Assembly (NCBI GenBank): GCA_903813345.2
Contig: CAIIXF020000011.1
Location: 30,124,166-30,188,165, forward strand
Length of the DNA: 64,000 nucleotides
Source of the DNA: Owenia fusiformis
Lineage: Eukaryota; Annelida; Polychaeta; Sabellida; Oweniidae
Direction of reading: 5' to 3'
Position 1 is the first letter of the stretch. Each line of letters begins with the position of its first letter. The notes beneath the pieces were generated by a model, which did no database searches, had not been told where the DNA came from, and was given only the letters and a program-made list of their open reading frames with translations. The position numbers and the translations under genes were made by a program. Shown one piece after another: positions 1,991-63,206 of the stretch.

Positions 1991-2200
1991 ATGGCGACTG
2001 TTGCCTTTCGATGGCTAGAACTTTTAGAGAAGGAATTTGACAAAGCCTTTGTAGATTTGGATCTGCTATTAGGTGAAATAGATCCTGAACAGTGTGAAAT
2101 TACATATGATGGAAGACAAAAAATGACCGCCTTATCTGCAGCCTTTGCTCAGCTGTGCCATAAAGCACAAACTATTTTCCAAAGCAGTGCAAAATTGGAG
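1991..2200 (+). CDS. GOPC: GOPC exon 1 (residues 1-70)
   Basis: The exon starts at the ATG in a strong context and ends KLE before gtgagt, phase 0. It encodes the highly conserved N-terminal block including LLGEIDPEQ and CHKAQ. The open frame runs on into the intron but homology stops at the donor. Confidence 0.95.
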
Positions 2201-5200: not shown

Positions 5201-8200
5201 CTGTAATCTGTATGATTACATGCACATCCTGCATTCTGTAATCAGAAGGAAAATGTCTAAATTATTATATCACTCTGTAGTTATGTGTTTGTCATCTCAG
5301 GTAATTGTCTTATAATATTGTAAATTGATTGCTTTATATAATTGCTTATTTTAGAGGACAAGGAGGCAATGTTGTTCATGTAGGTAATTGTCGGAGAAAG
5401 ACCTGCATTGAGTGTCTGACAATTACCTACATGGACGACATTGCCTCCATGTCCTCTTGTGCAATTCTTCCTACTTATAATTAACAATTCATGACATTTA
5501 TTTTTAAGAGCAGTAATGCTGTATATTTTGTAAAACAATCCATTCCCACTTAATGAACAGAAAGTTATTCATCATTCTCCCAATTCTTTCAGGCCCAGCT
5601 TATAGATCACAGATCAGACCTATGTGAGGTCAGGGCTACCAAAACTGTTGTAGAAAAGGAGCTGCAGAATTTGATTCTACAGCTGCACAGCTGCCAGATT
5701 GAACTGCAGACTGTCAAATCTGGTCATGATGTGGACTCTGAAGCTATCAAAAGGAAGTTGGTAAGTCTGAAGAATATGAGTTGTCTGAATATATCAGTAG
5801 TCCTTCTTTGTGGTTGATAGATTACCATAGGAGAGATATCATATTCATCGATGTACGAAAACATGTCATGAAATAATATGTCTGTCTTTGCTATTTTATC
5901 ATCCTATCATTAGATATTCACCATAAAAAGTGTTTATACAAGCAAAACAAACATTATTATTTTCAAAAAGCCTTTTTTGATATATTTTATTGTTTATCAA
6001 TATTTATTTTTCAATTACCAATTTACAAAAGCATGCCAATAGCGAGCTCATTTCCTCCAAACACCTCTGTTGATATTACTTTCCCTGAGACAAATGGACT
6101 ACAAATTGCAGTTTACAATATAGTTGAGAACTACTGATTGAGCACAGCAGTGTTATTATTTGAAATGTATCTACAGCACCTGGCAATGACACTCCTAGAA
6201 AAATATACCCTGATATTAATGTCAGAACGCTCTAGGATTTAGCTTGAAGTTATTAGATCAAGGAAGTGAGTTCTTAGTTTTATTTGAATTAGTTCTACAA
6301 GAGCAGGATATGAACTATAATTCATAGTTGGGGTAATAATCAGATGCTATCAAAAAGTTATCTTGAATTTTGCACCAATTCAATATTAAAAGTAAGTTTC
6401 CTCCCAATGATCTTGTGGTTTATTCCTAAAGCCAGTTTGAGCATCAGATCCACAAAAGCTAATGATAGAAGCATTTGAAGATATTTCCAGGGATATTTCA
6501 CATAAACAATGTATTTACAAGGTAATAAATGCCAAGTTTGTAAAAGGACAATCATATGAACGTTTTATTTCCTGAAGTTGCGTATACATCTTTTGATTTG
6601 CTTGACCAGTACATAATACTGGGTCTCCAGGAATACCACTAGGTCTCAAGTGAATACCACTGGGTCTTGACCATTTAAAAATAAAATGTAAAATGACAAG
6701 CATGGCAGTAATTCAATAATCTGATCAGAATCTCAAGAATATGTTTTGAACTGGTACAGTATTCTGTCTAATCTGGCAGCAAATAGGTTTTCAATTAGGT
6801 CTGGTGTATCTTCAAACTCTCCATTCGTTACAGAACGACATTGATCTGAACATTGGTTGTTTTAATCCTATGAAAGTCACTGTTGATAGTTAGACCATAA
6901 ACAAGGAAACAGGGTGCCTAAATGTCATGCTAGAGCAATATCAGGCCTGTGAGTTATAGAAGATGAATCCGGTGTATCTATCAGGGAAAGAATCGGTACA
7001 TTTCCCAAAGGTCCCCTTAAACAAGTACTTATATCACACATGGGTAACTCAACTAATTAGCCTGTGTTAGAGAAACCAATTATAGGGAACCAGACCAATT
7101 GTGACTCTCTAAGATGTGTTTCACAAGAGAAATTGGGAACTTTCCACTGTACAGTATGGTTCATTTTTGATAAATTCCTTCCAGATTGCCACATAATTGG
7201 TACATGTACATAATTTGCAATGAGACTCTTTTTATGAATTTTTGATTGGCATGTGATTGATACTAATAATTTGCAATATATCTTTTTCTATCAATTTTTA
7301 TCTTTATCATGGCCCATGTCTTTATTAAGACATGTGTTCTTTAACTCTCCAAACTCACAACTGCCCAACTGTCATATAAAGGAGATTACAGGGAGGATGC
7401 ATTAGGGATGGACTCAGACTGTCAGAGGGAGTGAGGGCAGATGGGCATATGCTTTTACTAAATGAATGATTATATAGTAAAATGAACCGATGATGGCAAA
7501 AGGGAAGATGGACTGATGTAGGTTGAGGTGAGGAATAGACTGATGGAGGAGGGGGATGGACTGATGGAGGAGAGATTGACTGATTGAGGAAAGATAGACT
7601 GATGGAGGAGAGATTGACTGATTGAGGAAAGATAGACTGGTGGAGGAGAGATGAGGTCAAAATGAACTTGTGAAGAGAGGGGAGAAATAGTTTGACTAAA
7701 GTTCCTCATATTTGAAATTATTTATAAGGCTCCATATTTACATCTCAAGAAATAATTATGGAACTTATTTGTTATGCTATCAAAGCAAACTGTGTTTACG
7801 CTCACAAAATGGAATTATTGATTTGCTAGTTTGGATTGCTCTATTTCGCTTCATTTGACAACCAATATCCTACAAATTCTGGTTGATCTTTAGGTGAATA
7901 TATACATGATAAAATAGGGGCAGTATTAGCCCAATAATTTTAAATATCTGGGGTAAAGCTTCAAATCATCAAATAACATTCCTGATTTGGGTACTGGGAT
8001 ATAACAGCCCATAAGACGGCTACTTGAATAGGTAACGGGAAATTAATTTGTGAACTGAATATCCCGAGGGGTCTGAACCTGGACATCAACTGGTTCTTGT
8101 GGTAAATTTAATTGACTAAAAGCAATAATTCTATTGTTTTGGGAATTATCGACTGATTTACAACTTGACAGGCTGGATTGACGCGAGGGACAAGTCAAAG

Positions 8201-11200: not shown

Positions 11201-14200
11201 ACACAGGGTGTGTAGTCTAGTTTAAGGGATCAACAATGAATACTGTATACCCCAGTCACCTTATCTATCCCTTAATCCTTCAAATCTTCACATAGAATAG
11301 AATATAATCTTTAGTGACAACCAGTTAACCAAGTAGAATATCTTAAGCAGAATGATGTTGTCTTAGATTCTAGATTTTCTAGGAAAACAATGATTGATGC
11401 AAATGTCTTGTATGATTAATTTTCTTTCTAATATTGAGTTATCACAGGTCATGTCTTTATGTACCCTTTTCATTCGTGTGATTCATCTATACTCTGAATA
11501 AGGAAAATCCTTTTATTATGTCACCACCAAAAGTGGTGACATATTGTTATGGTCTCCGTTTTTTTTATGTCACCACCAAAAGTGGTGACATATTGTTATG
11601 GTCTCCGTTTTTTTTTGCGACGGCGGTTGGCGTCCGGCGGTTGGTGGTTGGCGTCCGGCGTCTGTAACAATTTCTTACAACTTCCTATAACTTAACAAAT
11701 ACTGTTTAGACTGACTTCAATTTTTTTCTAAATCATCTACATGTTCTCAGAAGTTCAAATCTGACTTTAGATTTGACATTTGACCTTCAATGACCTTCTC
11801 AAGGTCAAAAAGGTCTTTTTTCAACTTGCTTCACATTGATTAAATTTTTTTTTCAAAATCATCTACATGTTCTCAGAAATTCAAATCTGACTTTAGATTT
11901 GACTTTAGATTTGACATTTGACCTTCAATGACCTTCTCAAAGTCAAAAAAGGTCAAAAAGGTCTTTTTTCAACTTGCTTCAAATTGACTAAATTTTTTTT
12001 TCAAAATCATCTACATGTTCTCAGAAATTCAAATCTGACTTTAGATTTGACATTTGACCTTCAATGACCTTCTCAAGGTCAAAAAAGGTCAAAAAGGTCT
12101 GTTTTCAACTTGCTTCAAATTGACTAAAAAAAATTTTAAAAATCATCTACGTGTTCTCAGAAATTCAAATCTGACTTTAGATTTGACTTTAGATTTGACA
12201 TTTGACCTTCAATGACCTTCTCAAAGTCAAAAAAGGTCAAAACGGTCTTTTTTCAACTTGCTTCTAATTGACTAAATTTTTTTTTCAAAATCATCTACAT
12301 GTTCTCAGAAATTCAAATCTGACTTTAGATTTGACATTTGACCTTCAATGACCTTCTCAATGTCAAAAAAGGTCAGAAAGGTCTTTTTTCATCTTGCTTC
12401 AAATTTCACATTGACTAAATGTTTTTTCAAAATCATCTACATGTTCTCAGAAATTCAAATCTGACTTTAGATTTGACTTTAGATTTGACATTTGACCTTT
12501 AAATCTGACTTTAGATTTGACATTTGACCTTCAATGACCTTCTCAAGGTCAAAAAAGGTCAAAAAGGTCTGTTTTCAACTTGCTTCAAATTGACTAAATT
12601 TTTTTTTCAAAATCATCTATGTGTTCTCAGAAATTCAAATCTGACTTTAGATTTGACTTAAGATTTGACATTTGACCTTCAATGACCTTCTCAAAGTCAA
12701 AAAGGTCAAAAAGGTATTTTTTCAACTTGCTTCAAATTGACTAAATTTTTTTTTCAAAATCATCTACATGTTCTCAGAAATTCAAATCTGACTTTAGATT
12801 TGACATTTGAACTTCAATGACCTTCTCAAGGTCAAAAAAGGTCAAAAAGGTCTGTTTTCAACTTGCTTCAAGTTGACTAAAAAAAATTTTAAAAATCATC
12901 TACGTGTTCTCAGAAATTCAAATCTGACTTTAGATTTGACTTAAGATTTGACATTTGACCTTCAATGACCTTCTCAAAGTCAAAAAAGGTCAAAAAGTTA
13001 TTTTTTCAACTTGCTCCTAATTGACTAAATTTTTTTTCAATATCATCTACATGTTCTCAGAAATTCAAATCTGACTTTAGATTTGACATTTGACCTTCAA
13101 TGACCTTCTCAATGTCAAAAAGGTCAAAAAGGTCTTTTTTCATCTTGCTTCAAATTGACTAAATTTTTTTTTCAAAATCATCTACATGTTCTCAGAAATT
13201 CAAATATGACTTTAGATTTGACTTTAGATTTGACATTTGACCTTCAATGTCCTTCTCAAGGTCAAAAAAGGTCAAAAAGGTCTTTTTTCAACTTGCTTCA
13301 AATTGACTAATTTTTTTTTTCAAAATCATCTACATGTTCTCAGAAATTCAAATCTGACTTTAGATTTGACATTTGACCTTCAATGACCTTCTCAAGGTCA
13401 AAAAAGGTCAAAAAGGTCTGTTTTCAACTTGCTTCAAATTGACTAATTTTTTTTTTCAAAATCGTCTACATCTTTTCAGAAGTTCAAATTTGACGTTTAC
13501 AAGTTCTCAGAAGTTCAAATCTGACTTTAGATTTGACCTTTGACCTTCAATGACCTTCTCAAGGTCAAAAAGGTCTTTTTTCAACTTGCTTCAAATTGAC
13601 GAATTTTTTTTTCAAAATCATCTACATGTTTTAAGAAGTTCAAATCAAACCTTCTTAAGGTCAAAAGGTATTTTCCAACTTGCTTTAAATTGACCAAATT
13701 GTTTTAGGTGGTGACATTTTGTCATGTTAATGCCTTGTTAAGCCTTACTTTAAGTTGATCAAAATATTCAGCTACCCAATCAGAATTGCAGGCAGAGTAC
13801 CCTTTACATTCATTCAACTTCGCTTCTTATCTTAAAAGAGAGCTCCATCTTCACTTTTTCAGATTGCAATAAATCTCTGAACTAACCATATATATATATC
13901 TTTTATTGACTCTTTAGATGTCATATCATGACATATTAGTCACTAAGGTAGAGCAGTTCTTCCCATTGTCGAGTTGAAGAACTGGTATCTTTATCCTGGC
14001 TAGAACCATAGACAATTCTAGTCAGCGCCAGCCTTTTATCGAGTTAGCAGCACTCTAGTAATCGCCGGTATAGGTCAGCAGTCGTAGGTCAAAGACCTCT
14101 ACTTTTCAGTTTGAAGCCGGACTTCCTGCTTTTCAGACCAATGCCTTAACCACTAGGCCAACCCGGCGACCATGCCAATCAGAGTTTGCCTTTTATCGAG

Positions 14201-17200
14201 TTAGCAGCACTCTAGTAATCGCCGGTATAGGTCAGCAGTCGTAGGTCAAAGACCTCTACTTTTCAGTTTGAAGCCGGACTTCCTGCTTTTCAGACCAATG
14301 CCTTAACCACTAGGCCAACCCGGCGACCATGCCAATCAGAGTTTGTCATTGAATACGGATGACTTTCTATGAATGGTTATTTCCTCTGACATCATCACAT
14401 AGTTATTGAGCATGCATTTAGCAGGTATTTCTTTCAGCTGATTGGTTAAGTAAAAGGTCAGTGCGCAAGGTTTAAAATGATTTATGACCAAGGCTGTTCC
14501 AGGCACCAGTCGTGGAGGTGGGGCTGTTAAACGGTTATATTGTCTGTACAAGGCAGAGGTTAGTTACTAGATTCTGCATGCAGGGTACCGTCAGAGTTTT
14601 ATCCCTTCATAAGTAGTGTATTTTATTTCTTTTTATTCAGAGTTAATAAAAGCCATGACAGCTAAGCTATATTTGTCTTATTAAGAGGATAGGAACTAGT
14701 GCCAGGACACAGGAATATCTCTTCGGGAATCAAAAACAGAATTACAGAAATCTCACAAAGATTTTGTTTCAAAGTTTTAAAAGTAATTTCCTATCCAAAA
14801 TATAAAAAAAATGTCATACTCCTTTCATAATTTAGGGTTCAATTTCAAATGCCTGTTTTCAATATACATCATAACATTTGTTATAAACCTTTCTACTAAT
14901 TACTCAAATGAATGTATTTGATTCTGTGAGCTACATGCTAATGCCAGGCCTTTATTTTATAATAGTCACCTCAAGAGAATAATGCCTTCCTCTGTTATCT
15001 CAAAAAAATATTTCCATAAAATGGCAATTGAGGAACAAAATGGGTGGACAATGAAGAAATGGGAGAATATGGGAAACATGTATATAATCCACTGTTTCTA
15101 TGATAACAGGAAATATATCATTATTGAGATATCAATGAGAAAAGACGTGGATTAAGCAGGATATGAGGGAAAGTTTTAGTATGGGACAAAAAAGTGTCTA
15201 AAGACATGGAATGAATTCTAATTTCGAGGCACTTTGGGTTTAAGGAAAATTGCCAATTATGTTGTTATCGTTTAGCTATATTACCTAACCAAGAGCTAGC
15301 GGTCAGCAAAAGATTACAACAGTTTTCAAATTAAAATTATTAATAGTAGATGTTCCTTGCTTTTTGGCTCATACAGAAGGATCAGAAAGATATCCGACCA
15401 TTCTTCCATCTGTTTGTCAGACAGATGATAGATATTAAAACTATTTGCATCAAATCACTTGCACATTCATTTTGTGCCTAACCATATTATCTATTTCTCC
15501 CGTCATTATAAAATCCCCCATTTCCTCGGTTCTATGGAAATGAGTGATTTTGACACCGTGCCTCATTTAAAAGTAAATCACTATTTGAGCAGAGGGGGGG
15601 GGGGCAGTGGGTCCTTTATTGATGTACATGTACAAGTATATATTTTTTACATTTACTTCATCTTTCAAGATCAGTACTCACTAAGCTCTAGAACTCTAGA
15701 AATACCTTTGGACCAAGGATGCATTTTCTTCATTTTTCATCTTTCCAGTGTTTTAACATAGAAAATATAAACTGAATCTAATAGATCTGTCTTTTGCCAC
15801 AATTTCTATTTACTGAAGTAGATTCCCTATAGAATATAGAAAATATGGTGAGATCTTCGCCTTTCATCAGTTCATTTCAAGAACTAAATTGATAGTTAGA
15901 ACAACAGAAAGATGTGATGAGTATCAGAATGAAGGAAAATAAATTTGGATGTTTACAGAGTGAATTTTCTGGAGAATTTTCAACAGATATATTTTTGGAC
16001 TCAAATTATATTTTAAGACTCACATTATCTCGCCTAAGTGATCTACTCTATTAGAAACCAAAGGTGTTATTGTTTACTTCCAAATGCCAATATAAATGTG
16101 GAATTAGCTGAATCTGAGATCTTTTTTAGTAAATAAACATCTCTTATAAATACACCTTTTTGAGGCTGTAGATACGATAACAAAGTTCTTCATTCAATCA
16201 GAATATCATCAAGAAGATATTTTATGAAAAGGAATTAGAACTTCCAGTCACAGATCAGAAAGTGTTAATACGAGATTGCTCTAAACTTAGTTGAGGGATT
16301 TCTCCAAATATTTATTTGTAATGGAAAAGTTCATATATGATTCAACTTTATACATCTACACTTTCAGGAATTTTTGGGTTAAAAGATATTGGCTTGCCCT
16401 TTTAAGTCCCTGGTAGATCTGCCTCCCCCTTGGTCTTTGCCAGAAAAAAATTAGGACCCAAATTTTTTAGGGCCCTAATTAGTGGTCCTTTTTGGGCATA
16501 ATTGGGCCTATCAAGGCCTTTTTTAAATTTTAGGTCTAATTATCAAGAAAATGCTCCTTAAATTTTCCAAATTTGGACCTACTTTTTAGTTTTAGGGGCT
16601 CAAAATTTTTTCAGACTTGAAATATGGCCCCCTTGTTGGTTCCCAGGTCCGCCCCTGTAAGTTATGAAATGATAAGTCCTCTTGAGGACTTGTATTCAGA
16701 AACAAATGTATTCTTCCATGTTTTTGTTAGATTGATAGCCTATAATTGATAGAAGCAGTTGTATACTTGAGCATAAGACATGGATGGAATATTAAATATA
16801 TAATTTGTCATTTATCACATCATAGGTATTTTATTTAGGAGAAATAGCTTTTTGCATTACTGTATATAGTAATGTTGCAAATGGATGGATCTATTTATAA
16901 GAAGATATTAATACGACTACATTGATTAAAATACTGTATAATGCATGTTCAATTTACCTGTCATTATCCCACTGAATGAAGTTTGAGAGGGATATAGAAA
17001 AGCCATCCATCTGTCTGTCTGTTTGTCCATCTATTCAATGGTGTGTTAGCCTGTCAGGGTAATATGAGTAAACATATTGGGTTCAAATTTTACAGCTTGA
17101 TGCCTTATGGGGCAGAGACAACTTGATTTAACAAATCTGTTCATTTCCACTCACATAATTGAGTAATGATATAAAATTAGAAATTGAACAAAAATAATAA

Positions 17201-20200
17201 GAAGCAAGTGAATTGTTTCTAATACAGATTCAATTATTGACATTTCTGGTTTTAAGAAACAAGAGCTATGTAGGATAAAAAAGATAATTTAGCATTATAT
17301 TGCCTAAATAGGTATTGATCTTTCTACTGATAATGTTTACAAATGTTTGGTTCTTCAGTTCCATCAATAAACATTTGCTGGGTGAAGTTGCACCAGATGA
17401 CAATCAAGCCTATTTGGACCACTTCATAGAAATTATTACAGACGAATATGTTGATGTTCACAAAGAAGCATTTTGTTTTATCATTACAGATGAAAAACCA
17501 TCTTAAATTAGCCATATCAAGTATTTACCATTGTCTCCTGGGGGAGAAGCCATTTTCCTGAAGGAGTAAAGCCTCTGAGCAAGGTTAAGGGTTGATATCA
17601 TCTATGAGATGGTTCAGGTTTACAATATAAACCTCATATAATTATGTCACCATCTAGAAGTGGAGACATATTGTTAGTCTTCAACTTTTTGTAGACGGTG
17701 TTTGGCTGTCGGTGTCTGTAATTTGCTCTAACTTACAAGGTGGTGATGTTTTGTGCCTATAATGTATTACATTCCAGTGATCTATGATGTACTTAAGATT
17801 TATTCATTTGGGTATACTAAATATATTTTCGTGAAGTTGAGCATTCAAAAATTAAGATATTTATTAAGATAGTTTTGAATTAGATTTCTTTGGATAGCAG
17901 CATGGTAAAAACATGTTATACCCAATGGATTACAACGTTTAACCCAAGCCATGATAATACCTTTAGTGCAACCCCTTTCCAGACTTTGATTTCAGCATGA
18001 GGATGTCAAAATAAAAAATTTGTATCCAGTTTTGAAAAATTCCTATGTAGAGCACTTTATCCCATACTTGGACGTGTTACAGGTACATAAAGCCGGTTTG
18101 TAAAAACTTATATTTTCATCAGCGGGCAGATATAGCTTTACGTCTCGCTCCGAGCGGGCAGATATAGTATATCTGCCCGCTACGTCACAAATGATACTCG
18201 CATATTTGTTCATAATTTGTAACGTTCGCGTAATGACTGTAAACGACAATGGAGAAAACACAGACAATCGGGATCTGTTTGATGGTTTAAAAAAGAGAAG
18301 GAGCATCAACTTAATCAATCAGAAATTTGGGAAAATAAATGTGGGAATATTTGAGAGAACAGGAAAATCTGCCCACGGGCCAAGAAAACAAAACTTGACA
18401 TGAATATTCTAAAATATTTCCACGATTGAACAATGTTAACCAGATGACCAATATTGGTATGGGATAAACATATTATCCTATAGTCGGTTCAGGATATTGG
18501 GATTATCCCTTGGCCAATATAATATATTTTCCCTCGGGACCTGCGGCCCTCGGGCAAATATATTATATTAGCCTCGGGATAATCCCAATATCCTGAACCT
18601 CATATAGGATAATCTCTATATATGCTTGAAACATCTTTTACAGCCAGAAGCCAAGCTGACAGGCATCAGTCTAGTTGTCTCGCCTGTATCACTAAAAGGA
18701 TATTGAGATCATGAGAGAATTGAAGAGAATGATAAATGTGTCAGACATGAGTTTATTACAGTTGTTAATCAGACTAGGGACCTAAGGACTTGTAAGGCCC
18801 CAAGGTGGGTTCGCTCCCATGATTCCTTTCTTAATAATATAAGGCAGAGGAGGATCAATCACTGTGAATTATCATAGCGACGTATTGGAACTATATTGTA
18901 CATAGTCCCATATATCAACTATTGTAACTCTCTATTAATTAGGGGTAAATGAATATACAATCTAATATATAACAATACAATATAATATAATGCAACGCAA
19001 TATAATATAATATAATACAATATAGTACAGTATAATACAATACAATACAATAGAATATGATATAATACAATACAGTACAATACAATACAATGCAATTCAG
19101 GATTTAAGTTGCTTCACTTATATTTCGATCCTGGTTTAATACCATTGAGATCCTGTCATCATAATTCTGTAATTTCCTTAAGAAAAATAAAATATTGGCA
19201 GATTTATTTACCAATATAATGTCAGAAGGAACTATAACAAGATACGGAAATCTCCTTCCAATTGGTGAATTAGTGTACATTGAAGAGTGAACTAAGTAAA
19301 GAGAATAAGATGTATTTTTGAGAAATATTCAGAAAAGAATGATCAGGGATTATGTCAGATTAGGCTCTGTAATATACATGGACACCTTTACCAAATTGTC
19401 TGACATTCTGGAAAGTAATTAATAGTGAATTCGGGTACATTCTTACCTAATTCCTTTGGGATAAGCTGTCAAATATAACATTTCACGCTGCAGCTGGTTT
19501 AGTACTGTCAGTTATTGTATTTTATAAAATCAAAGCTGTCTCCATGATATACTGATTATAAGCTCGATCCCTTATGGTACCCCCTTTTCTATAAATATTA
19601 CATTAGAAGTAATATTTGTTCGTAATCTTAATATCATAATAAGATAATTTTAAGAGAACATAAAAGCAAAGTGGTTTTTTGGAATGATATCTTGAAGAAG
19701 GGGGCATACATTACATATCTCACATGGTGTATTTCTCCCGGGATATACCCCATGTTCAAAACTTCATTTAGCGTAATTTTTACTAATCATCTGTCTCCCA
19801 TTGTGCATTTCCCCAGGATATACCCCATATTCAAAACCTCCTATAACGTAACTTCTACAAATCATCTATCTCCGACTTTGTAATATCCCCAGGATATACC
19901 CCATATTCAAAACCTCATTTAACATAATTTTTACAAATCATCTATCTCTGACTTTGTATTTCCCCAGGATATACCCCATATCCAAAACCTCCCATAACAT
20001 AACCCTTACATATAATTGTTTACTTCCAGGAGAGTGAGATAGAAGACAGGAAGATAGATAACATGCAAATGGCACGTCTTGAAGCAGAGCTTAAAGAACT
20101 GAAGAAGGACAACCATGAACTCAGGCAATATGTGGTAGCTCTACAGGGAGAGGTCTATGGAGCAAGACTAGCTGCTAAATACCTTGATAAAGAACTTGCT

Positions 20201-23200
20201 GGAAGGTAATGAACTATTTAATTCACTTTTCCACTTTGCTGCTTTTGTTAAAGATTATAATTATAATGTTATAATTTGGTGCTTAGATATGTGTGAGAAT
20301 ATAAACCTGTTGTGTATTACAAATAGAATAAAATAGTAGCAAAGATTCATCATGAAAAATATTTTGAGTATTAAAAGTGTAGCTAAGGACTTAATAAACT
20401 TATTTTGGGTGACTGGGATCCAAGCTATGACACTTATCAGTGTTTAGTTTGTGAACTCATATGTTGCTAAAGTGTTCAATTAAAAACTTGAATTTTGCTT
20501 AGTGTTCAGTTGGTGAACTCTATTGTTGCGAAGTGTTCAGTTTGTGAACTATAATGTTGCTAAGTGTTGAATTTGTGAACTGTAATGTTGTCAAGTGTTC
20601 AGATGGTGAACTCTAATATTGCTAAGTGTTCAGTTTGTGAACTCTAATTTTGCTAAGTGTTGGATTTGTGAACTGTAATGTTGTCAAGTGTTCAGATGGT
20701 GAACTCTAATGTTGCTAAGTGTTCAGTTTTGAACTCTAATGTTTCTAAGTGTTCAATTTGTGAACTGTAATGTTGTCAAGTGTTCAGATGGTGAACTGTA
20801 ATATTGCTTTGTGTTCCATTTTAAACTATAATGATGCAAATGTTCAGTTTATTAACTCTAATTTACAGGATACAACAGATTCAGTTGCTAGGAAGAGATA
20901 TGAAAGGCTCAGAGCACGATAAACTGTGGAACCAATTAGAAGCAGAAATACATCTTCACCGTCATAAAACAGTCATAAGGGCTTGCAGAGGACGCTCTGA
21001 TAACAGACGGCGTAACTTTTTACCTCCGGGACATGTAAGCCAGTTTTCCAATTTTAACAAATTAGAGTCAATGTTTACTTGCGATATTTTCCTTTGATTT
21101 GCTGAAATAAAGATTTATATTCAAATGCTGCAAATTTTGGATGAGACTAACTCCAGTTAGTGTCATCCTGCTGCGGACCAGTGAATAATAAAAATTAAAA
21201 GGTTTTACTGTGCTTAAATTACGAGCGGACTAATATGAGTACATACTGGCAACTTTTACGCTGCCTATGGAATTATATTGATGCAGTCTAGAAAAACAGA
21301 CTTTAAATAACACAAATATTGAAGCTGAAAAGCAATTATTCAGATGTGAATACTTTTAGTAGTTTCTACTGCAATGCTTTATTTATTAGTTATCAGTTCT
21401 ACTTAGTATGATTAGCACATGTTTCATTTATCAACCCTCATATCTAAAAATGTGTATGATCATTTTACTCTGTTACCATAGATACTACATGTAATCAAGT
21501 ATCATATAAATAACAGTATATTCCGCACACATTTGTTTGAAGTGATTTTAAACAACCAGATTTTTTGCAAAATTTAGTTTTCAAGCACATATCTGTTGAT
21601 GAATACTCAAAGCAAACTTTGATTTTGCTTGAGCACTTGTGGCTCACTCTCTATATTTTCTTATTGTAGGACCAAGATGCCTTGAGACACAGACAGGGGG
21701 TTGGGGAGATAAGGAAGATGAAACTGACTATTTTATTTACTGTTTTGTTTGAACACTTGTGGCTCACTCTCTATATTCTCTTATTGTAGGACCTAGATGC
21801 CTTGAGACACAGACAGGGGGTTGGGGAGATAAGAAAGGTGAAACTGACTAAAGAGCCAGATGAAGGCTTAGGCATGTCAATAACAGTAAGTAGAAGTATA
21901 AAGTCTCATCATTGATTTAATGTCAGTGTTAATGTAAACTCCAATACATAAACAATCAAGTGTTAATGGCTTGATGTGATAATCCTTTGTTTTTTGTTAT
22001 TAAATCATAGTCACATGTTGAAATTCTTATCATTGTTTGAAAGGCTTAATTTATATACATGTACTAAGTACGTACATAGCACAAACTATCAAGAGTGGAT
22101 GATTTTTTTTATATCCATCCAGTTGCAATATTCCAATGTTCATTTTTACAATTCTATCCAAGTTATCAACATGCATGGCAAACATGTTGATTGTTTATGG
22201 TTTCTCTGTGTGTAGAAGCTAGAAAAAACAGATTTAATTTTTATGTCACTACACAAATGTGAAATATTGTTACAGTCTCAAGTGTTTTAGTGACCGGTTG
22301 ATGTTGGATGGTTGGTGTTCAGTGGTTAGTGTATCTGTAACAAATTGAAGATGGTGACATTTTGTATGTTTGTATGTTAATGCCTTGTTATCAAAGCGTT
22401 TCATACACCTTATATAACGGTGATCAATATGTAAAGGGTGAACTGTCACATCTCTACATTTACATCTTTCTACAGGGTGGTAAAGAACATGGAGTGCCTA
22501 TCCTGATCTCTGAGATTCACCCTGGCCAACCAGCTGACAGGTGTGAAGGCTTGTATGTGGGTGATGCAATATTATCAGTCAATAGAGTAGATTTAAGGAA
22601 TGCAAAACATGCTGAAGCTGTGCAGATACTCTCAATGCAGGTCAGTACCCAGAATTCAAAGTTATGGGAAAGTTCAGCACAGCCTAATTTGACATAATAG
22701 GGTTAATTCCGATTATAATTTGGACCTAGAAAAAACAATAATGCAATCTTAATTGCTTTTCAAACATCCATAAGCTTATTTAATTCATTAACAGTTTTTG
22801 GATTAAAAAGGAAATCAGAAAAGTAACATTTGAGATAAGTTTTTTTAATATGAACTCTTACCCTTTTCTCCTTTGGGGATTTGAGAATGTGGATCATACT
22901 ATACAAAGGTGACATCTTTAGAATGGTCTCATGGTGCAATCTGCCTTGATGTATAACCCTTTTTTCTAAAATCTAGAAAAGTCATTTCAGGCCATTCAAT
23001 CAGGACGATAGAATTCAATTCTATAACTGGAGTGATTTCTTCAGTTTCATCAACTATTTTATCTGACTCAATGGTGCCATTCTTTGGACCAGCAGTCAGT
23101 CTGTAATTCCTGTACTTTTTGAACTTTTTGCAATAACCTACCATTTTGTCATGTTAATGTCTTACATATTTCAGACAGGAGAAATAGAGATGGAAGTTGT

Positions 23201-26200
23201 ATTTGTGGCACCTGATGAAGATTCTGATGATGGAAATGATGAATATGTAGATGAAAATGGATTCAGGTAAGATTCCACCCCTTTGCTTGTGTATTGCCTC
23301 CCCAATCTTGTAATATGTATGTTTATGTGACTGAACTTTTTGGGTTTTCATAAAAACTAAGCATTACTTGATTTTCCCATAGTTTTGGACTTGTGTGTAC
23401 ACAATTCCCTTTATTTGGCCATTTCATTAATTTCCAATCTGCCATCTACTAGCCTTACTTGTTAAAGGCAATAATGGAATTTGAGAACTTAATGCTAAAG
23501 CATAGAGACTAATTATCATCATTTGGAACTACATGTATTATTAGTGCACTGAACACTCTAATTTGGCAGCTCTGCTCAAGCTGTGCCCATGTGTTAATTA
23601 TAAACACATTTACTAAATTGTGAGGATCAAGTTTTGCTTTGTTTAGTTTATTACTCATAATCCACAATAATTAGTACACATTTACAGATCTTATATAACA
23701 CTTTTCACACAAACTATAGACCACTGTTTTGCTGTTTGTAGAACTAACTGGACCAAAGCTTGGATTTCCTTATATATGTGTATTTGTGTAGATATGCTGT
23801 AGATCTTAGGGTTGGCATGGAATGGAACTATTATCTGAAACATACAATTTAATTTCGTTACCACACATTTGTAACTGAACTGTTCATCATTTTCCACAAT
23901 GAATATTTACTTTTTCGCAAAAATAAACTATGATATATGAAATCAATGAATATATCAGTTGGGAATAAAAATTGGCTGTACTTTGACACTCAATATCTTT
24001 GATACACTCTCATATCCACTTCTAAAGAAATATTATGTTCATTTGTTTTATTTTATATGTGATATTAATTCAAAGATGAGAAAAAATTACTTAAATTTTT
24101 GTATATTTGGTACCTTTTTGAATAAACTACCAATGACAAAATATCTGAATATTCTGAAATATCTGAAAGTTCTGAATTTTAGAGGCAAGTTCCAAAATCT
24201 GTTCAGATTCCATTCCATGCTATTATGAATAATAACAACTACTCTAGCAGTTCTTCATAATAATACCAATGCTACAATATATCAAATAATATTAGAAGAA
24301 TACTAAAACATGAGAAGGTAACTACGGAATATACGAGAATCTATAATGAACATGTTTCCCTGTATGTACAGTGTATGAAGAACATGTTTTGTATGTAAGA
24401 ATGTATGATGGACATGTTTTCTTGCACACTCTGTATGTACAGCATGTATGATGAACATGTTTTCTTGCACACTCTGTATGTACAGCATGTATGATGACTG
24501 GTTTTCTTGCACACTCTGTAGGTACAGAATGTATGATGAACATGTTTTCTTGCACACTCTGTATGTACAGCATGTATGATGAACATGTTTTCTTGCACAC
24601 TCTGTATGTACAGCATGTATGATGAACATGTTTTCTTGCACACTCTGTATGTACAGCATGTATGATGAACATGTTTTCTTGCACACTCTGTAGGTACAGA
24701 ATGTATGATGTACATGTTTTCTTGCACACTCTGTAGGTACAGAATGTATGATGAATGTGTTTTCTTGCACACTCTGTAGGTACAGAATGTATGATGAACA
24801 TGTTTTCTTGGACACTCTGTAGGTACAGAATGTATGATGAACATGTTTTCTTGCACACTCTGTAGGTACAGAATGTATGATGAGCATGTTTTCTTGCACA
24901 CTCTGTAGGTACAGAATGTATGATGAACATGTTTTCTTGCACACTCTGTAGGTACAGAATGTATGATGAATGTGTTTTCTTGCACACTCTGTAGGTACAG
25001 AATGTATGATGAACATGTTTTCTTGCACACTCTGTAGGTACAGAATGTATGATGAATGTGTTTTCTTGCACATTCTGTAGGTACAAAATGTATGATGAAT
25101 GTGTTTTCTTGCACACTCTGTAGGTACAGAATGTATGATGAACATGTTTTCTTGCACACTCTGTAGGTATAGAATGAATGATGAACATGTTTTCTTGCAC
25201 ACTCTGTAGGTACAGAATGTATGATGAACATGTTTTCTTGGACACTCTGTAGGTACAGAATGTATGATGAACATGTTTTCTTGCACACTCTGTAGGTACA
25301 GAATGTATGATGAGCATGTTTTCTTGCACACTCTGTAGGTACAGAATGTATGATGAATGTGTTTTCTTGCACACTCTGTAGGTACAGAATGTATGACGAA
25401 GAGGTTGGTAGTGTCACTAGTGAACAAAGTCATGGTAGTCATAGTAATCGAGTTAACGGCAGCTCATCATCCCCAACCCACAAGCAGCAACATGGTGCTG
25501 CCAATTCTCATGCTTTAAATGGTGATGTCACAAATAGGTGGGTAGATATATAGATGTCGCTTAAGTATTTCATTCTTATCGCTATATTGTGACCTCACAA
25601 TCTTAGCATGTCCATTAGACTCACTAAGAACTTCTTTTAGTAATTCTTCAACACTGTTGTTCTAATCACTATCACAGTATGTATTTATAGTAGAAGTGAT
25701 TTGCTATTATTGTATTACATAGATGTTTGGGATGAAAATCTTATTGCAATAAACATTTAACATGAATCCTTATAGTTTTGCATCAGGCATCTGCCCCCCC
25801 CCCCCCAACATGTAAGGCTTACTGTGTCCGAGTAAGATGGGGGGGGGAGTTAAAGGCTTATGATGCAAGACTGGAAAATATCACAGTAGCTTGTTGATAA
25901 TGTGAGAAACTACATAATCAAATTGACATTTAGAAAAAAAGATAATAAATCAAACATAACATAGATTGATCATGTACTGAAGACTATATTTCTTAAATGT
26001 GTATGATTTGATTACATTCGTCACATTATTAATTCAGTGGTTCAGTATTTTCACTACTTTTGTATGAATGTAACCTAACCAGCCTCAACTTTCTCTCTTT
26101 ATGCAGCAGACCACGGTAGCATCATCTTGTGCACTGAGGTAGTGTGCAGGCATGGGCAGTAGTGTGCATTTATTCACCTGCATGTTCTATTCACCTGTAT

Positions 26201-28557
26201 GTTCTGAAATGTGCAATCACCTGCACGTTCTGAAATGTGCAATCACCTGCATGTTCTAAAATGTGCAATCACCTGCATGTTCTGAAATGTTCAATTACCT
26301 GAATGTTCTATAATGTGCAGTAAAATGAATGTTCTATATGCTGCAGTCGCCTGCATGTTCTATGATGTGCAGTCACATGCACTTTCTGAAATGAACAGTC
26401 ACCTGCATGTTCTGTAATGTGCAGTCACCTGCATGTTCTATAATGTACAGTCACCTGCATGTTCTACAATGTACAGTCACCTGCATGCTCTATAATATGC
26501 AGTAACCTGCATGTTCTATAATATGCAGTCACCTGCATGTTGTATAATATGCAGTCACATGCATGTTCTATAATGTGCAGTTACCTGAATGATCTATAAT
26601 GTGCAGTCACATGCATGTTCTATAATGTGCAGTTACCTGTATGTTTTCTAATGTGCAGTCACCTGCATGTTCTATAATGTGCAGTCACCTGCATGATTTA
26701 AAATGAGCAGTCACCTGCATTTTTCAGAAATGTGCAGTTACCTGCATGTTTTATAATGTGCAGTCACCTGTATGGTCTATAATGTGCAGTCACCTGCATG
26801 TTCTATGATGTGCAGTCACCTGCATGTTCTATAATGTGTAGTCACCTGCCTGTTCTAAAATGAGCAATTACCTACATGTTTTATAATGTGCAGTCACTAG
26901 TATGCTCTGCATGTGCAGGGTGATTCAAAAAATGCAACATTTCAATTATTGTTAAATTACATTTTTATTTGTTTTGGAATCATCTGGAAGATTGAGTATC
27001 CAGTTTTAAATGCAAGGGCATGCCTGGTTTGAAACATGTTTCCTCTTAATCTCTATGTTGAATATGATATATAAGTTACCACTCCTTTATTCCATTAGGC
27101 GCTTTCTCTATATAAGAAAGTTCCACTTTTCTAGAGAAATAAAAATTTCACAGTGGTCAACATAATGTTTTTGTATAAGGATAGGAGACTAGCATGTCCT
27201 CTCAAGTAAATTACATTGGTAATATAACAGGCTTTCGACAATGTAACAAAAGCGAGGAGCTGAATTGAAACTTCATTTACAAAACAAATTCCACATCGAA
27301 GAAACTTATTAAAACTAGACAATATTGTCTAGCTATTGGCCAAATTATAATCTACAACTTGACTTCTAAGTAGGTTTAAATTGAGAAAACAAAAAACTCA
27401 TAACCAGGACAATCATCCATTTTGTTTCATTGATGTTCCATCAAAGCAACTAGTTGTGGAACAGTGAAAGTGGACTTTGATCTCTGTGAAATGTAAATTG
27501 AAGGCTCTGCATGAATGAAGTGACAACTTACACCAGGCTCTCTCAGAAAGTGTCTCTAGTATAGTGCAAGATGTCAAATTACTGTATTTTGTCTCTCATT
27601 TTGAAAACGTGGTTCAATTTGGGAGGGATTAATAAATAGGTAACACCCAGCTTTAAGTTCCATTATGCAAGGGGATTTCAGTGTATACATAATGTTCGAT
27701 GTTGATGTAAAAATGTTTACCGTTTTGAATAAGCAAATAGCTTGTTGGCTGAGTAAATCTTGATGCAGGCCTAGAGAAAAGGAATTTACCAACTTGTCAT
27801 CTTGATCAAATTTGCTGCATGCTAAAATATTTCAATGTTTCATATTATTTTGCTTGTTTAGAGCATGAGTTATAGGTGATTGTCATGGTTTCTTCTCATA
27901 ACAATCAGTGATGCACACAAATATTGTTCTTTATTTGGTTTTGGTATCTTAGTGCATTGGTAAAATACATTTAGTTTTTGTTGTTAAAGGTGGAGGTCAT
28001 TTTATTATTCGCTATGCATTTTTCCTTTATAGCTTGAAACTGGGAATATTTGTTATAAAATTGCAAATTAAGGATTTTGGCATGTTGGAAAATGTTATGC
28101 ATATAGGCCTATAAAGCATTGTGTTTTTCAATATTTCTTGAAAAATATTCTAATGTAATTTCTTTCTTTGAATTTCAGCCCAATGAACAACACAAACTCA
28201 ATTCAGAATACGTCTGCTAGTCCATCTAATGACCTTGACCTTGACAAGTCTTTGTCATCTCAATGTGAAAACGTGACTCAAAATGAGGCTGTCCAAGACA
28301 CTCTGCTATCTGCTAATGTACAAGCAACTGAAAACATTCCAGAATCTTCTCAAAATACAGCTGATAATATTGAAACTGATGCTCCTTCAGTCAATGGGAA
28401 AGGCTCACTGAATGCTCCCTCAGCAGACGGAAAGAAGGATCAGTCACAACCAAATAAGGCAGGTGATGAATTAGCTATGAATGTTGGTCTATTACAACCC
28501 AGTGGAATACAACAGCAACATATAGGCCCTGAGGCAACCTTTAACAGTAATATGTAG
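1991..28557 (+). CDS. GOPC: GOPC: Golgi-associated PDZ and coiled-coil protein (whole coding span, 9 exons)
   Basis: GOPC (also PIST/CAL) is a Golgi and trans-Golgi peripheral protein. Its PDZ domain binds C-terminal tails of membrane cargo and its coiled coil binds Golgi and Rab-type partners, which decides recycling versus lysosomal delivery. Joining exons 1991-2200, 5593-5760, 20030-20205, 20869-21034, 21790-21885, 22476-22640, 23175-23266, 25382-25537 and 28179-28557 gives one open frame of about 535 residues with all phases matching and GT-AG borders. Residues 1-70 match the conserved N-terminus ([20 protein letters not shown]). About 75-235 is helical and includes [29 protein letters not shown] and [11 protein letters not shown]. 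About 254-340 is the PDZ domain with a GLGM carboxylate loop and [13 protein letters not shown]. The Ser/Asn-rich tail (about 370-535) is longer than in vertebrates and not recognisable. The ATG has a good context (aaaATGG). Family identity is very secure; exon edges are inferred from consensus and frame. Confidence 0.95.
2331..2479. repeat. Foldback (palindromic) element in GOPC intron 1
   Basis: Two roughly 60 bp arms (2331-2392 and 2412-2479) are inverted copies around a GC-richer core, gtgagcgtagcgaacgag. The arms start and end with TTATATAATGG/CCATTATATAA. It is one of several hairpin elements in the window with a similar core. Confidence 0.75.
2482..2822. mobile_element. MITE with TIR tatRccactctaagt
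   Basis: The inverted ends tatgccactctaagt and acttagagtggtata bound about 340 bp. It directly adjoins the preceding foldback element. The interior has further GTATAC-rich inverted motifs. The target duplication is not clear, possibly TA. Confidence 0.55.
3556..4188. mobile_element. MITE-like element with ~30 bp terminal inverted repeats
   Basis: The arm aatcttaatgaaaccatatc at 3556 continues to caacctttgtt-like sequence at 3585, and its inverse occupies 4159-4188 (aacaaaggtgatatggtttc onward). It is 633 bp with no transposase and no clear target duplication. The 60-codon ORF inside has no recognisable homology. Confidence 0.6.
5353..5456. repeat. Hairpin element with 43 bp arms
   Basis: Arms beginning agaggacaaggaggcaatg and ending cattgcctccatgtcctct are near-perfect inverted copies around a short loop. 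It lies 137 bp before GOPC exon 2. It is probably a small foldback MITE; no target duplication was identified. Confidence 0.7.
5593..5760 (+). CDS. GOPC: GOPC exon 2 (residues 71-126)
   Basis: The acceptor is ttctttcag and the donor gtaagt, phase 0 on both sides, 168 bp. It encodes coiled-coil sequence beginning [10 protein letters not shown], which continues the KLE of exon 1 exactly as in vertebrate GOPC (KLEAQL). Confidence 0.93.
7490..7660 (+). repeat. Purine-rich imperfect tandem repeat
   Basis: Repeated gatggaggagagattgactg and related units, one strand nearly all G/A/T. The proline/serine-rich ORFs on the opposite strand are by-products of this composition. Confidence 0.75.
9129..9425 (+). 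mobile_element. tRNA-derived SINE, copy 1
   Basis: The head has an A-box-like tatagctcag and a B box GGATTCGATCC (about 9186-9196). The body includes gagtggtccacaactcgta, aaaggctg and gaacacatggctcct with aggaggggtttct. The same body recurs at 50815-51124, so this is a dispersed SINE family. The 3' limit is approximate. Confidence 0.8.
10325..10441 (+). mobile_element. ATGTCACCACC element, diverged copy
   Basis: Internal tttggcagttggt and right end taacaaatggcaggtggtga then catgttaatg match the other copies. The left end is degraded. Confidence 0.6.
10493..10640. mobile_element. 148 bp MITE with TA target sites
   Basis: The inverted ends CACGGGTGTTAAGC and GCTTTACCCCCGTG, with extended inverted similarity through catgagc/gctcattg, are flanked by TA on both sides (10491-10492 and 10641-10642). 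This is Tc1/mariner-like in its target choice. There is no coding capacity. Confidence 0.65.
11516..13740 (+). mobile_element. ATGTCACCACC element expanded by an internal minisatellite
   Basis: The left end ttatgtcaccaccaaaagtg is present twice (11516 and about 11565). The right end ggtggtgacattttgtcatg then ttaatgccttgtta closes at 13740. Short copies elsewhere are about 120-150 bp; here about 14 copies of a roughly 137 bp unit fill the middle. Each unit reads about atctacatgttctcagaaat, then gactttagatttgacatttg, then gaccttctcaaggtcaaaaa. No coding potential is seen. Confidence 0.8.
13888..14344 (-). mobile_element. SINE (- strand) with tRNA-like head and LINE-related 3' tail
   Basis: Read on the - strand, the head has an A-box-like ttggcctagtggttaaggc and a weaker B-box-like ggcttcaaact. 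A body follows, then a tail tctaccttagtgactaat ... gtcaataaaag and a TA run at 13888. The tail matches the 3' end of the LINE at 56486-60050. The head is present as two tandem copies of 157 bp (14031-14187 and 14188-14344) that look identical. Confidence 0.72.
17644..17766 (+). mobile_element. ATGTCACCACC element, short copy
   Basis: The left end tatgtcaccatctagaagtg plus gacatattgttag, internal gtagacggtgtttggc, and right end aaggtggtgatgttttg. It is a diverged short member of the family. Confidence 0.65.
18122..18181. repeat. Palindrome with agcgggcagatata arms
   Basis: 18153-18181 is a perfect palindrome (agcgggcagatata, one base, tatatctgcccgct). A third copy of the arm starts at 18122, with gtctcgctccgagcggg between. 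Confidence 0.75.
18472..18613. repeat. Foldback element with ccctcgggacctgcggccc core
   Basis: Arms of about 38 bp plus inner arms (attatcctat ... ggattatccc against gggataatcc ... ataggataat) surround a GC-rich core. The design matches the elements at 2331-2479 and 54632-54776. Confidence 0.75.
18950..19095 (+). repeat. ATACA/ATATA pentanucleotide-type microsatellite
   Basis: Runs of aatacaatac and aatataatat units, degenerate. Nothing else is seen here. Confidence 0.8.
19738..20029 (+). repeat. ~76 bp tandem repeat ending in the exon 3 acceptor
   Basis: Four units share ggatataccccatattcaaa and a following region. Three units carry an acceptor-like ccccag|ga at 19815, 19891 and 19966. The true acceptor (AG 20028-20029, tacttccag|gagag) occupies the corresponding place in the last, shorter unit. 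Confidence 0.7.
20030..20205 (+). CDS. GOPC: GOPC exon 3 (coiled coil)
   Basis: The acceptor is tacttccag and the donor gtaatg; 176 bp, ending within an Arg codon. It encodes the charged coiled coil ending in the family signature [17 protein letters not shown] 14.3 kb intron separates it from exon 2, and its acceptor follows a run of acceptor-like 76 bp repeats. Confidence 0.95.
20206..20868 (+). other. GOPC intron 3
   Basis: 663 bp. The first 230 bp are unique and AT-rich; the remainder is the 31 bp minisatellite. Confidence 0.85.
20437..20868 (+). repeat. ~31 bp minisatellite abutting the exon 4 acceptor
   Basis: About 14 copies of gtgttcagtttgtgaactct followed by aatgttgctaa run without a gap into the exon 4 acceptor, whose last unit reads ttcagtttattaactctaat then ttacag. 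The final repeat unit therefore supplies branch-point-like and acceptor sequence. Confidence 0.85.
20869..21034 (+). CDS. GOPC: GOPC exon 4 ([13 protein letters not shown] block)
   Basis: The acceptor is atttacag and the donor gtaagc; 166 bp, phase 2 in and phase 0 out. It is the most conserved stretch of the protein ([29 protein letters not shown]) and ends PPGH. A 31 bp minisatellite abuts the acceptor. Confidence 0.96.
21035..21789 (+). other. GOPC intron 4
   Basis: 755 bp of AT-rich DNA with the partial exon 5 duplicate at its 3' end. No other element is recognised. Confidence 0.85.
21621..21730 (+). pseudogene. Partial tandem copy of GOPC exon 5 and its acceptor
   Basis: This 110 bp is a near-identical copy of 21741-21850, offset by 120 bp. 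It carries the intron end (ggctcactctctatatt, ttattgtag) and the first 60 bp of exon 5 (21670-21729) encoding [20 protein letters not shown]. After that it diverges, has no donor, and reads into a TAG at the real acceptor. It retains DQD, as in vertebrate GOPC, where the used copy has DLD. Confidence 0.9.
21790..21885 (+). CDS. GOPC: GOPC exon 5 (start of PDZ domain)
   Basis: The acceptor is ttattgtag and the donor gtaagt; 96 bp, phase 0/0. It encodes 32 residues from [16 protein letters not shown] through GLGMSIT, the first PDZ strand and carboxylate-binding loop. A partial copy of this exon and its acceptor lies 120 bp upstream; only this copy reaches the donor. Confidence 0.94.
21886..22475 (+). 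other. GOPC intron 5
   Basis: 590 bp with one ATGTCACCACC element copy at 22242-22392; otherwise unique. Confidence 0.85.
22242..22392 (+). mobile_element. ATGTCACCACC element, short copy in GOPC intron 5
   Basis: Left end tatgtcactacacaaatgtg, internal ggttggtgttcagtggtt, and right end atctgtaacaaattgaag then atggtgacattttgtatg and ttaatgccttgtta. It ends 83 bp before exon 6. Confidence 0.75.
22476..22640 (+). CDS. GOPC: GOPC exon 6 (PDZ core)
   Basis: The acceptor is tttctacag and the donor gtcagt; 165 bp, phase 0/0. It encodes [31 protein letters not shown] and [12 protein letters not shown], i.e. the PDZ core including the helix B histidine. Confidence 0.96.
22641..23174 (+). other. GOPC intron 6
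   Basis: 534 bp. A right-end fragment of the ATGTCACCACC element (cattttgtcatgttaatgtc) lies about 23120-23164, just before exon 7. Nothing else is recognised. Confidence 0.8.
23175..23266 (+). CDS. GOPC: GOPC exon 7 (end of PDZ, acidic linker)
   Basis: The acceptor is atatttcag and the donor gtaaga; 92 bp, phase 0 in and 2 out. It encodes [13 protein letters not shown], the last PDZ strand, then an acidic Asp/Glu stretch ending DENGF before a split Arg codon, as in vertebrate GOPC. Confidence 0.93.
23267..25381 (+). other. GOPC intron 7
   Basis: 2.1 kb. The first kilobase is AT-rich and unique with no gene seen; from 24360 it is the 43 bp minisatellite. Confidence 0.85.
24360..25400 (+). 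repeat. 43 bp minisatellite built from the exon 8 acceptor (~24 copies)
   Basis: The unit reads about tgtatgatgaacatgttttc then ttgcacactctgtag then gtacagaa. It contains a pyrimidine-rich tract, the AG and the first ~19 bases of GOPC exon 8 (gtacagaatgtatga). The last unit is the functional acceptor at 25380-25381. The leftmost copies mostly read ctgtatgtacagcatg and have lost the AG at this place, while about 17-18 copies keep it. The unit has no stop in any - strand frame, so three long - strand ORFs of repetitive peptide appear; they are artefacts. Confidence 0.95.
25382..25537 (+). CDS. GOPC: GOPC exon 8 (YRMYDEE block)
   Basis: The acceptor is the last AG of a 43 bp minisatellite (cacactctgtag) and the donor is gtgggt; 156 bp, phase 2/2. 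It begins [12 protein letters not shown], matching vertebrate RYRLYLDELE, then becomes Ser/Asn/His-rich. About 17 upstream units carry the same AG and exon start. Confidence 0.88.
25538..28178 (+). other. GOPC intron 8
   Basis: 2.6 kb. It has a C-run/G-run hairpin at 25779-25866, a 26 bp minisatellite at 26160-26910, and AT-rich unique DNA from 26940 on. A possible short alternative exon starts near 26107 (ctctttatgcag|cagaccacgg), where the frame from exon 8 stops after four residues. Confidence 0.75.
26160..26910 (+). repeat. 26 bp minisatellite (~28 copies)
   Basis: The unit gtgcagtcacctgcatgttc + tataat is repeated with scattered substitutions. It has no spacers and lies in a eukaryotic intron, so it is not a CRISPR array. 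Confidence 0.9.
28179..28557 (+). CDS. GOPC: GOPC exon 9 (C-terminal tail, stop)
   Basis: The acceptor is ttgaatttcag in matching phase (Ser codon split), and the exon is open to TAG at 28555. The roughly 126-residue tail is polar, rich in Asn, Ser, Gln and Asp, with no recognised domain. It is assigned by phase, position and absence of another terminal exon. An alternative short terminal exon near 26107 is possible. Confidence 0.75.

Positions 28558-35452: not shown

Positions 35453-50012
<14,560 letters not shown>

Positions 50013-50425: not shown

Positions 50426-63206
<12,781 letters not shown>

Follow-up and report, generated by a model that had tools for sequence, protein, structure and literature searches.

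The acceptor of exon 8 in the GOPC gene of the annelid Owenia fusiformis is the last unit of a 43-bp minisatellite made of about 24 copies of the same intron/exon border. We characterized this array in a 64,000-nucleotide stretch of contig CAIIXF020000011.1 (assembly GCA_903813345.2), hereafter the window. Its structure is already known under the name of mirage, of which the GOPC array is a new and large example. We consider it probably passive, and most likely without a job of its own.

Gene Model and Structure of the Array

On the plus strand of the window, the GOPC model comprises nine exons from 1991 to 28557, with an open frame of 535 residues and a stop (table 1). Exons 1–7 were located by tblastn with what we take to be the human GOPC sequence, called presumed human GOPC below, and their borders were then set at AG and GT. 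Exons 8 and 9 gave no separate tblastn match to this protein. The joined model is 68% identical to presumed human GOPC over residues 6–366. The alignment crosses the exon 7/8 border, where the human segment reads GHRYRLYLDEL, and covers roughly the first nine residues of exon 8; no part of exon 9 aligns to the presumed human protein. Exons 6–8, when translated, match solved PDZ chains of human GOPC (best 5.9e-30, within the part from exons 6–7) and the Pfam PDZ family (4.2e-13). The frame, the donor at 23267, and the last intron base at 25381 had been given in an earlier note made from the sequence alone, and the model reproduces all three. Six bases into exon 8, a CAG (25382–25387, GTACAG/A; the slash marks the splice border) is a possible in-frame alternative acceptor that would remove two residues. 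The G+C content of the window is 0.295–0.367 per 2-kb step, below that of Branchiostoma, about 0.41.

Table 1. Positions in the Window of the GOPC Exons and Associated Repeats
Feature	Coordinates	Strand	Basis
GOPC exon 1 (ATG at 1991)	1991–2200	+	tblastn with presumed human GOPC; open frame
GOPC exon 2	5593–5760	+	tblastn with presumed human GOPC, splice borders, open frame
GOPC exon 3	20030–20205	+	tblastn with presumed human GOPC, open frame
GOPC exon 4	20869–21034	+	tblastn with presumed human GOPC, open frame
Second boundary duplication, two copies over the exon 5 acceptor	21623–21850	+	TRF, boundary matching
GOPC exon 5	21790–21885	+	tblastn with presumed human GOPC, open frame
GOPC exon 6 (PDZ)	22476–22640	+	structure match, tblastn, Pfam, open frame
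GOPC exon 7 (PDZ end), donor at 23267	23175–23266	+	tblastn, splice borders, open frame
Degenerate left edge of the array	24336–24411	+	TRF 24336–24420 and sequence
43-bp array	24390–25400	+	TRF and register with exon 8
17 upstream TAG/G acceptor copies (outermost ones, by first exon-like base)	24522–25339	+	sequence register
Higher-order duplication in the array, 170-bp exact copy of 24758–24927	25188–25357	+	sequence
GOPC exon 8, first 19 bases in the last array unit	25382–25537	+	borders, open frame; alignment of the initial residues to presumed human GOPC
GOPC exon 9, last coding exon with stop	28179–28557	+	frame and splice borders only

In this one sequence, TRF reports a period of 43 bp, 23.6 copies, a 95% match, and a score of 1770. 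Each unit joins bases −24 to −1 of intron 7 to bases +1 to +19 of exon 8, and the last is the real acceptor, with the first base of the exon at 25382. When the exon 8 boundary (−30 to +30) was compared with its flanks (1500 bases on each side), the local score was 95, whereas 60 single-base shuffles reached at most 28, which rules out a chance repeat. The unit is not a dispersed repeat either, as all 24 blastn matches to it in the window (E 0.1) lie within the array. The earlier proposal of some 24 copies of a 3′ splice site, built from the exon 8 boundary and ending in the real one, is thus confirmed.

Twenty-one units, with acceptor bases from 24522 to 25382, are in register. TAG is present at the acceptor in 18 of them and CAG at +4 to +6 in 19. 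Sixteen of the 18 TAG units keep CTGTAG/GTACAG exactly, the exceptions being 25081 (GTACAA) and 25167 (GTATAG); the earlier note counted about 17–18 usable-looking units. Units 24565, 24608, and 24651 have lost the TAG (CTGTAT/GTACAG). A one-base shift affects the units that start left of 24498, and left of about 24411 the array is degenerate. We considered a founding microhomology, because the left edge, AGAATCTATAATGAA, resembles AGAATGTATGACGAA in the exon; it matches the array unit better, however, and may be no more than a first copy that has decayed. Minus-strand ORFs of 362–386 aa span the array in all three frames, which we take as the result of a repeat unit without stops on that strand. 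Scans of the window for tRNAs and Rfam families gave no matches, and the 30-base core of the unit has none in viral contigs. A search for relatives of the GOPC protein in prokaryote genomes returned 84 pattern stretches, of which none was confirmed.

Mirages and Other Repeat Arrays at Splice Sites

The earlier note knew of no described array of this kind, but amphioxus mirages have the same structure, and in human UBC dual-specific splice sites are arrayed in tandem (PMC3087553, PMC3902484, PMC10809524; here and below, statements refer to excerpts of the cited papers). The name was introduced for cephalochordate genes, and amphioxus mirages occur in Adh3, BflGb6, BflGb9, and other genes. That of BflGb6 is a minisatellite-like tandem duplication in which the intron's 3′ end is copied together with the 5′ part of the exon, with units of 150–160 bp present in six or three copies in two haplotypes; the units of Adh3 measure 10–72 bp. 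Many mirage copies hold AG/GT signals, and somatic instability is cited for Adh3. RT-PCR in the globin study, together with data on Adh3, suggests that mirages do not interfere with regular splicing, and they have been proposed as sources of new introns (PMC3087553). Imperfect repeats in PGBD5 and, by citation, a troponin C mirage are also on record (PMC3902484). The GOPC array resembles mirages in duplicating an intron/exon boundary within its gene (−24 to +19 of the exon 8 acceptor) and in retaining the splice signals in most units (TAG/G in 18/21). It differs from BflGb6 in unit length and copy number (43 bp and about 24 copies) and in the behavior of its functional end: the boundaries of the BflGb6 cluster are excluded from concerted evolution (PMC3087553), whereas the real GOPC unit shares a variant with inner units. 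With it, the boundary minisatellites from which new introns have been proposed to arise gain a large example.

In UBC, as in GOPC, an AGGT splice signal delimits each repeat unit, and splicing between repeats has been observed (PMC10809524). The UBC repeats are coding, whereas those of GOPC are intronic, save for the exon part of the last unit, and have a weak donor half. In intron 18 of human ABCA7, the first two bases of a 25-bp VNTR unit are the exon's splice site, and arrays reach about 427 units. The donor of the neighboring copy is used to some extent, with out-of-frame retention of one 25-bp unit, and the length of the array influences splicing through skipping of exon 19 (PMC5954066). 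In ABCA7 and GOPC alike the array contains a splice site, and in ABCA7 the site of the next copy is used at times; the ABCA7 array holds a donor, with no mention of exon-derived copies in the excerpts, whereas that of GOPC holds an acceptor and copied exon. Zhuo and colleagues reportedly described in 2007 introns derived from tandem arrays in human genes, in which repeats supply both ends of the new intron. Such repeats are said to carry splice signals at intron ends as in GOPC, where, in contrast, only the 3′ end is repeat-derived. New introns have also been reported from human segmental-duplication repeats at exon–intron boundaries (PMC2812944). Neither the excerpts of that paper nor those of a paper on the miR-137 VNTR hold a closer case. 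Among the matches listed in our literature search, which used names other than GOPC, no acceptor array reaches this copy number.

Splice-Site Choice and Alternative Readings

From −22 to +15, the real site is matched base for base by 12 of its 17 upstream TAG copies, and site sequence therefore cannot discriminate between them. We also considered accessibility as the discriminating feature. By folding, the mean unpaired probability over −20 to +1 is 0.399 at the real site and 0.337–0.462 in the other 20 units; near the AG it is 0.400 against 0.159–0.464, the real site ranking fifth of 21 and the 5′ units being least open. The real site thus lies within the range of its copies, with no clear difference. 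Adenines usable for a branch point, with no intervening AG, lie at −37 to −25 of the real acceptor. This stretch belongs to the end of the unit before it, and the copies therefore share much the same branch region. What sets the real copy apart is that it alone leads directly into the rest of exon 8, with the donor of that exon.

On general grounds, we predict that exon definition picks this acceptor: position 25382 would be preferred for the exon body directly after it and the donor at an exon-like distance, its own site being no stronger than the others. The spliceosome would then mostly still pair exon 7 with 25382, and splicing in the animal should be accurate. The array forms a natural competition test of 3′ splice site choice: 12 upstream acceptors match the real one at all 37 bases and differ in following sequence and in the order in which they are transcribed. 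Junction counts would weigh exon context against the site itself.

Joining exon 7 to an upstream TAG site introduces an early stop in all 17 cases. The stop falls after residue 371 for 16 of them, at the TAG that precedes the border of the next copy, and after residue 376 for site 24522; these stops lie 13 or 18 residues past the border codon and 156–958 nt before the exon 8/9 junction. The upstream CAG sites, six bases further in, stop at the same places (18/18). The 13-residue extension ending at the next TAG, and the truncation just after the PDZ domain, had both been foreseen from the sequence and are found here, the former at 16 of 17 sites and the latter at every upstream TAG and CAG site. 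Transcripts with a stop more than 50 nt upstream of the last junction are targets of nonsense-mediated decay (NMD), and given these distances the upstream products are predicted to be degraded. Upstream use would thus more likely yield little or no protein than a stable truncated one. The array would be tolerated as long as NMD removes the occasional mis-spliced transcripts, nearly always stopped at the TAG of the next copy. The in-frame stop itself follows from unit length and phase, and selection is not needed to account for it.

Two points stand against full passivity. Seventeen good upstream acceptors would ordinarily be expected to leak somewhat, and the use of a neighboring donor in ABCA7 speaks against presuming that copies are always silent. 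An unlikely alternative is that the array serves unproductive splicing, regulated or stochastic, with upstream use followed by NMD and repeat number setting GOPC dosage. The stops ahead of the last junction at 17/17 upstream TAG sites fit this idea, as does ABCA7, where an array at a splice site leads to out-of-frame retention of a unit (PMC5954066). Against it, one-unit retention in ABCA7 is constant across array lengths (PMC5954066), amphioxus mirages reportedly leave splicing undisturbed (PMC3087553, PMC3902484), and the stops are explained without selection.

The array most likely began with a tandem duplication that captured the border of intron 7 and exon 8; amplification to about 24 copies would have followed by slippage or unequal exchange. 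A second boundary duplication in the same gene, at exon 5, supports this mirage-type reading. A 170-bp stretch recurs exactly, ten units on (table 1), and TG replaces CA at −24 and −23 both in the real unit and in the inner units starting at 24756, 24971, 25057, and 25100. Unequal exchange or conversion would account for both patterns; the shared variant further suggests that the functional unit itself joins in. The exact repeat and the shared variants are signs of concerted evolution within the cluster. The 170-bp duplication could instead be an assembly error, and one amphioxus mirage was apparently misassembled in a draft genome (PMC3087553). That the true array is much shorter than assembled is nevertheless very unlikely, as the units carry distinct variants (eight haplotypes in the last 17) and the left edge of the array decays.

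Each unit had also been proposed as a possible dual-specificity site. The AG/GT is indeed present, but the donor half is weak. With an approximate scoring matrix, TAG/GTACAG scores −0.64, and CAG/GTACAG, which is regenerated by splicing of exon 7 to a copy, scores 1.79; both are lower than any of the model's eight donors, which range from 2.14 to 8.39. Among the 1308 intronic GTs outside the array, CAG/GTACAG ranks in the top 3.7% and TAG/GTACAG in the top 10.9%.

The two boundary duplications of GOPC, at exons 5 and 8, sit on its only two TAG acceptors (2/8), each with the TAG as an in-frame stop, a coincidence with a chance of about 1/28 times 1/9 under random assignment, computed post hoc on two cases. 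This coincidence accords with a fault-tolerant 3′ splice site, in which an upstream landing would be re-spliced through CAG/GTACAG to the exact mRNA or else stopped at the TAG of the next acceptor and destroyed, copy number tuning GOPC output; such a site seems to us very doubtful. A ratchet in which copies act as acceptor and then as donor, re-splicing to the last copy restoring the correct mRNA, is possible but highly improbable, and we do not favor it: exon 7 joined to a full unit does recreate CAG/GTACAG, so that the next jump would remove exactly whole units, this donor stands high among intronic GTs, and human genes use dual-specific sites in tandem repeats (PMC10809524), but both array donors fall under the weakest donor of the model and an intron of one 43-nt unit would be short. 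Furthermore, GTACAG encodes Tyr-Arg, present at the same place in the presumed human protein, and its resemblance to a donor may thus be incidental.

Other Arrays in GOPC and in the Window

At exon 5, an upstream copy of the acceptor at 21670 precedes the real one at 21790 (local score 110, shuffles reaching at most 26). Over the 120-bp period, the copies differ at 16 positions, 6 in the first 108 and 10 in the end. If used, the upstream copy would keep the frame open as far as the next acceptor's TAG. It encodes DQD, which the presumed human protein also has, where the working exon has DLD. Boundary matching at the eight acceptors found the border copied at exons 5 and 8 only. At exon 4, a 31-bp array (20439–20862) ends about 4–6 bp before the acceptor without copying its AG, and the boundary score (38 against 27 shuffled) reflects a match on the intron side only. 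A 75-bp array (19728–20010) ends 20 bp before the exon 3 acceptor; the border is not copied, and boundary matching found no match to the surroundings. None of the eight donors scored above shuffles.

Four of eight acceptors and none of eight donors lie inside an array or within 20 bp of one (P = 0.018–0.031 by rotation, 0.055–0.065 by random intronic placement). Within 10 bp the count is three of eight acceptors (P = 0.042–0.071 and 0.23–0.27, respectively), and at tolerance 0 two of eight (P = 0.19–0.25 and 0.60–0.63). This enrichment of arrays at GOPC acceptors is marginal and suggestive only.

Other repeats lie elsewhere in the gene. Intron 8 contains a 26-bp array of 27 copies (26191–26897), not beside a splice site of the model. 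Intron 2 contains a long complex array (11721–13646, periods of about 136/284 bp) with many AAGGTCA/TGACCTT-like motifs, and a 157-bp unit present twice at 100% identity (14031–14345), either very recent or an assembly duplicate. On the minus strand, a reading frame at 35453–35860 matches the MGC-24 sialomucin family (Pfam 4.9e-18), and a long ORF at 56651–59536, which contains a reverse transcriptase domain (RVT_1 in Pfam, 1.7e-23), probably belongs to a retroelement.
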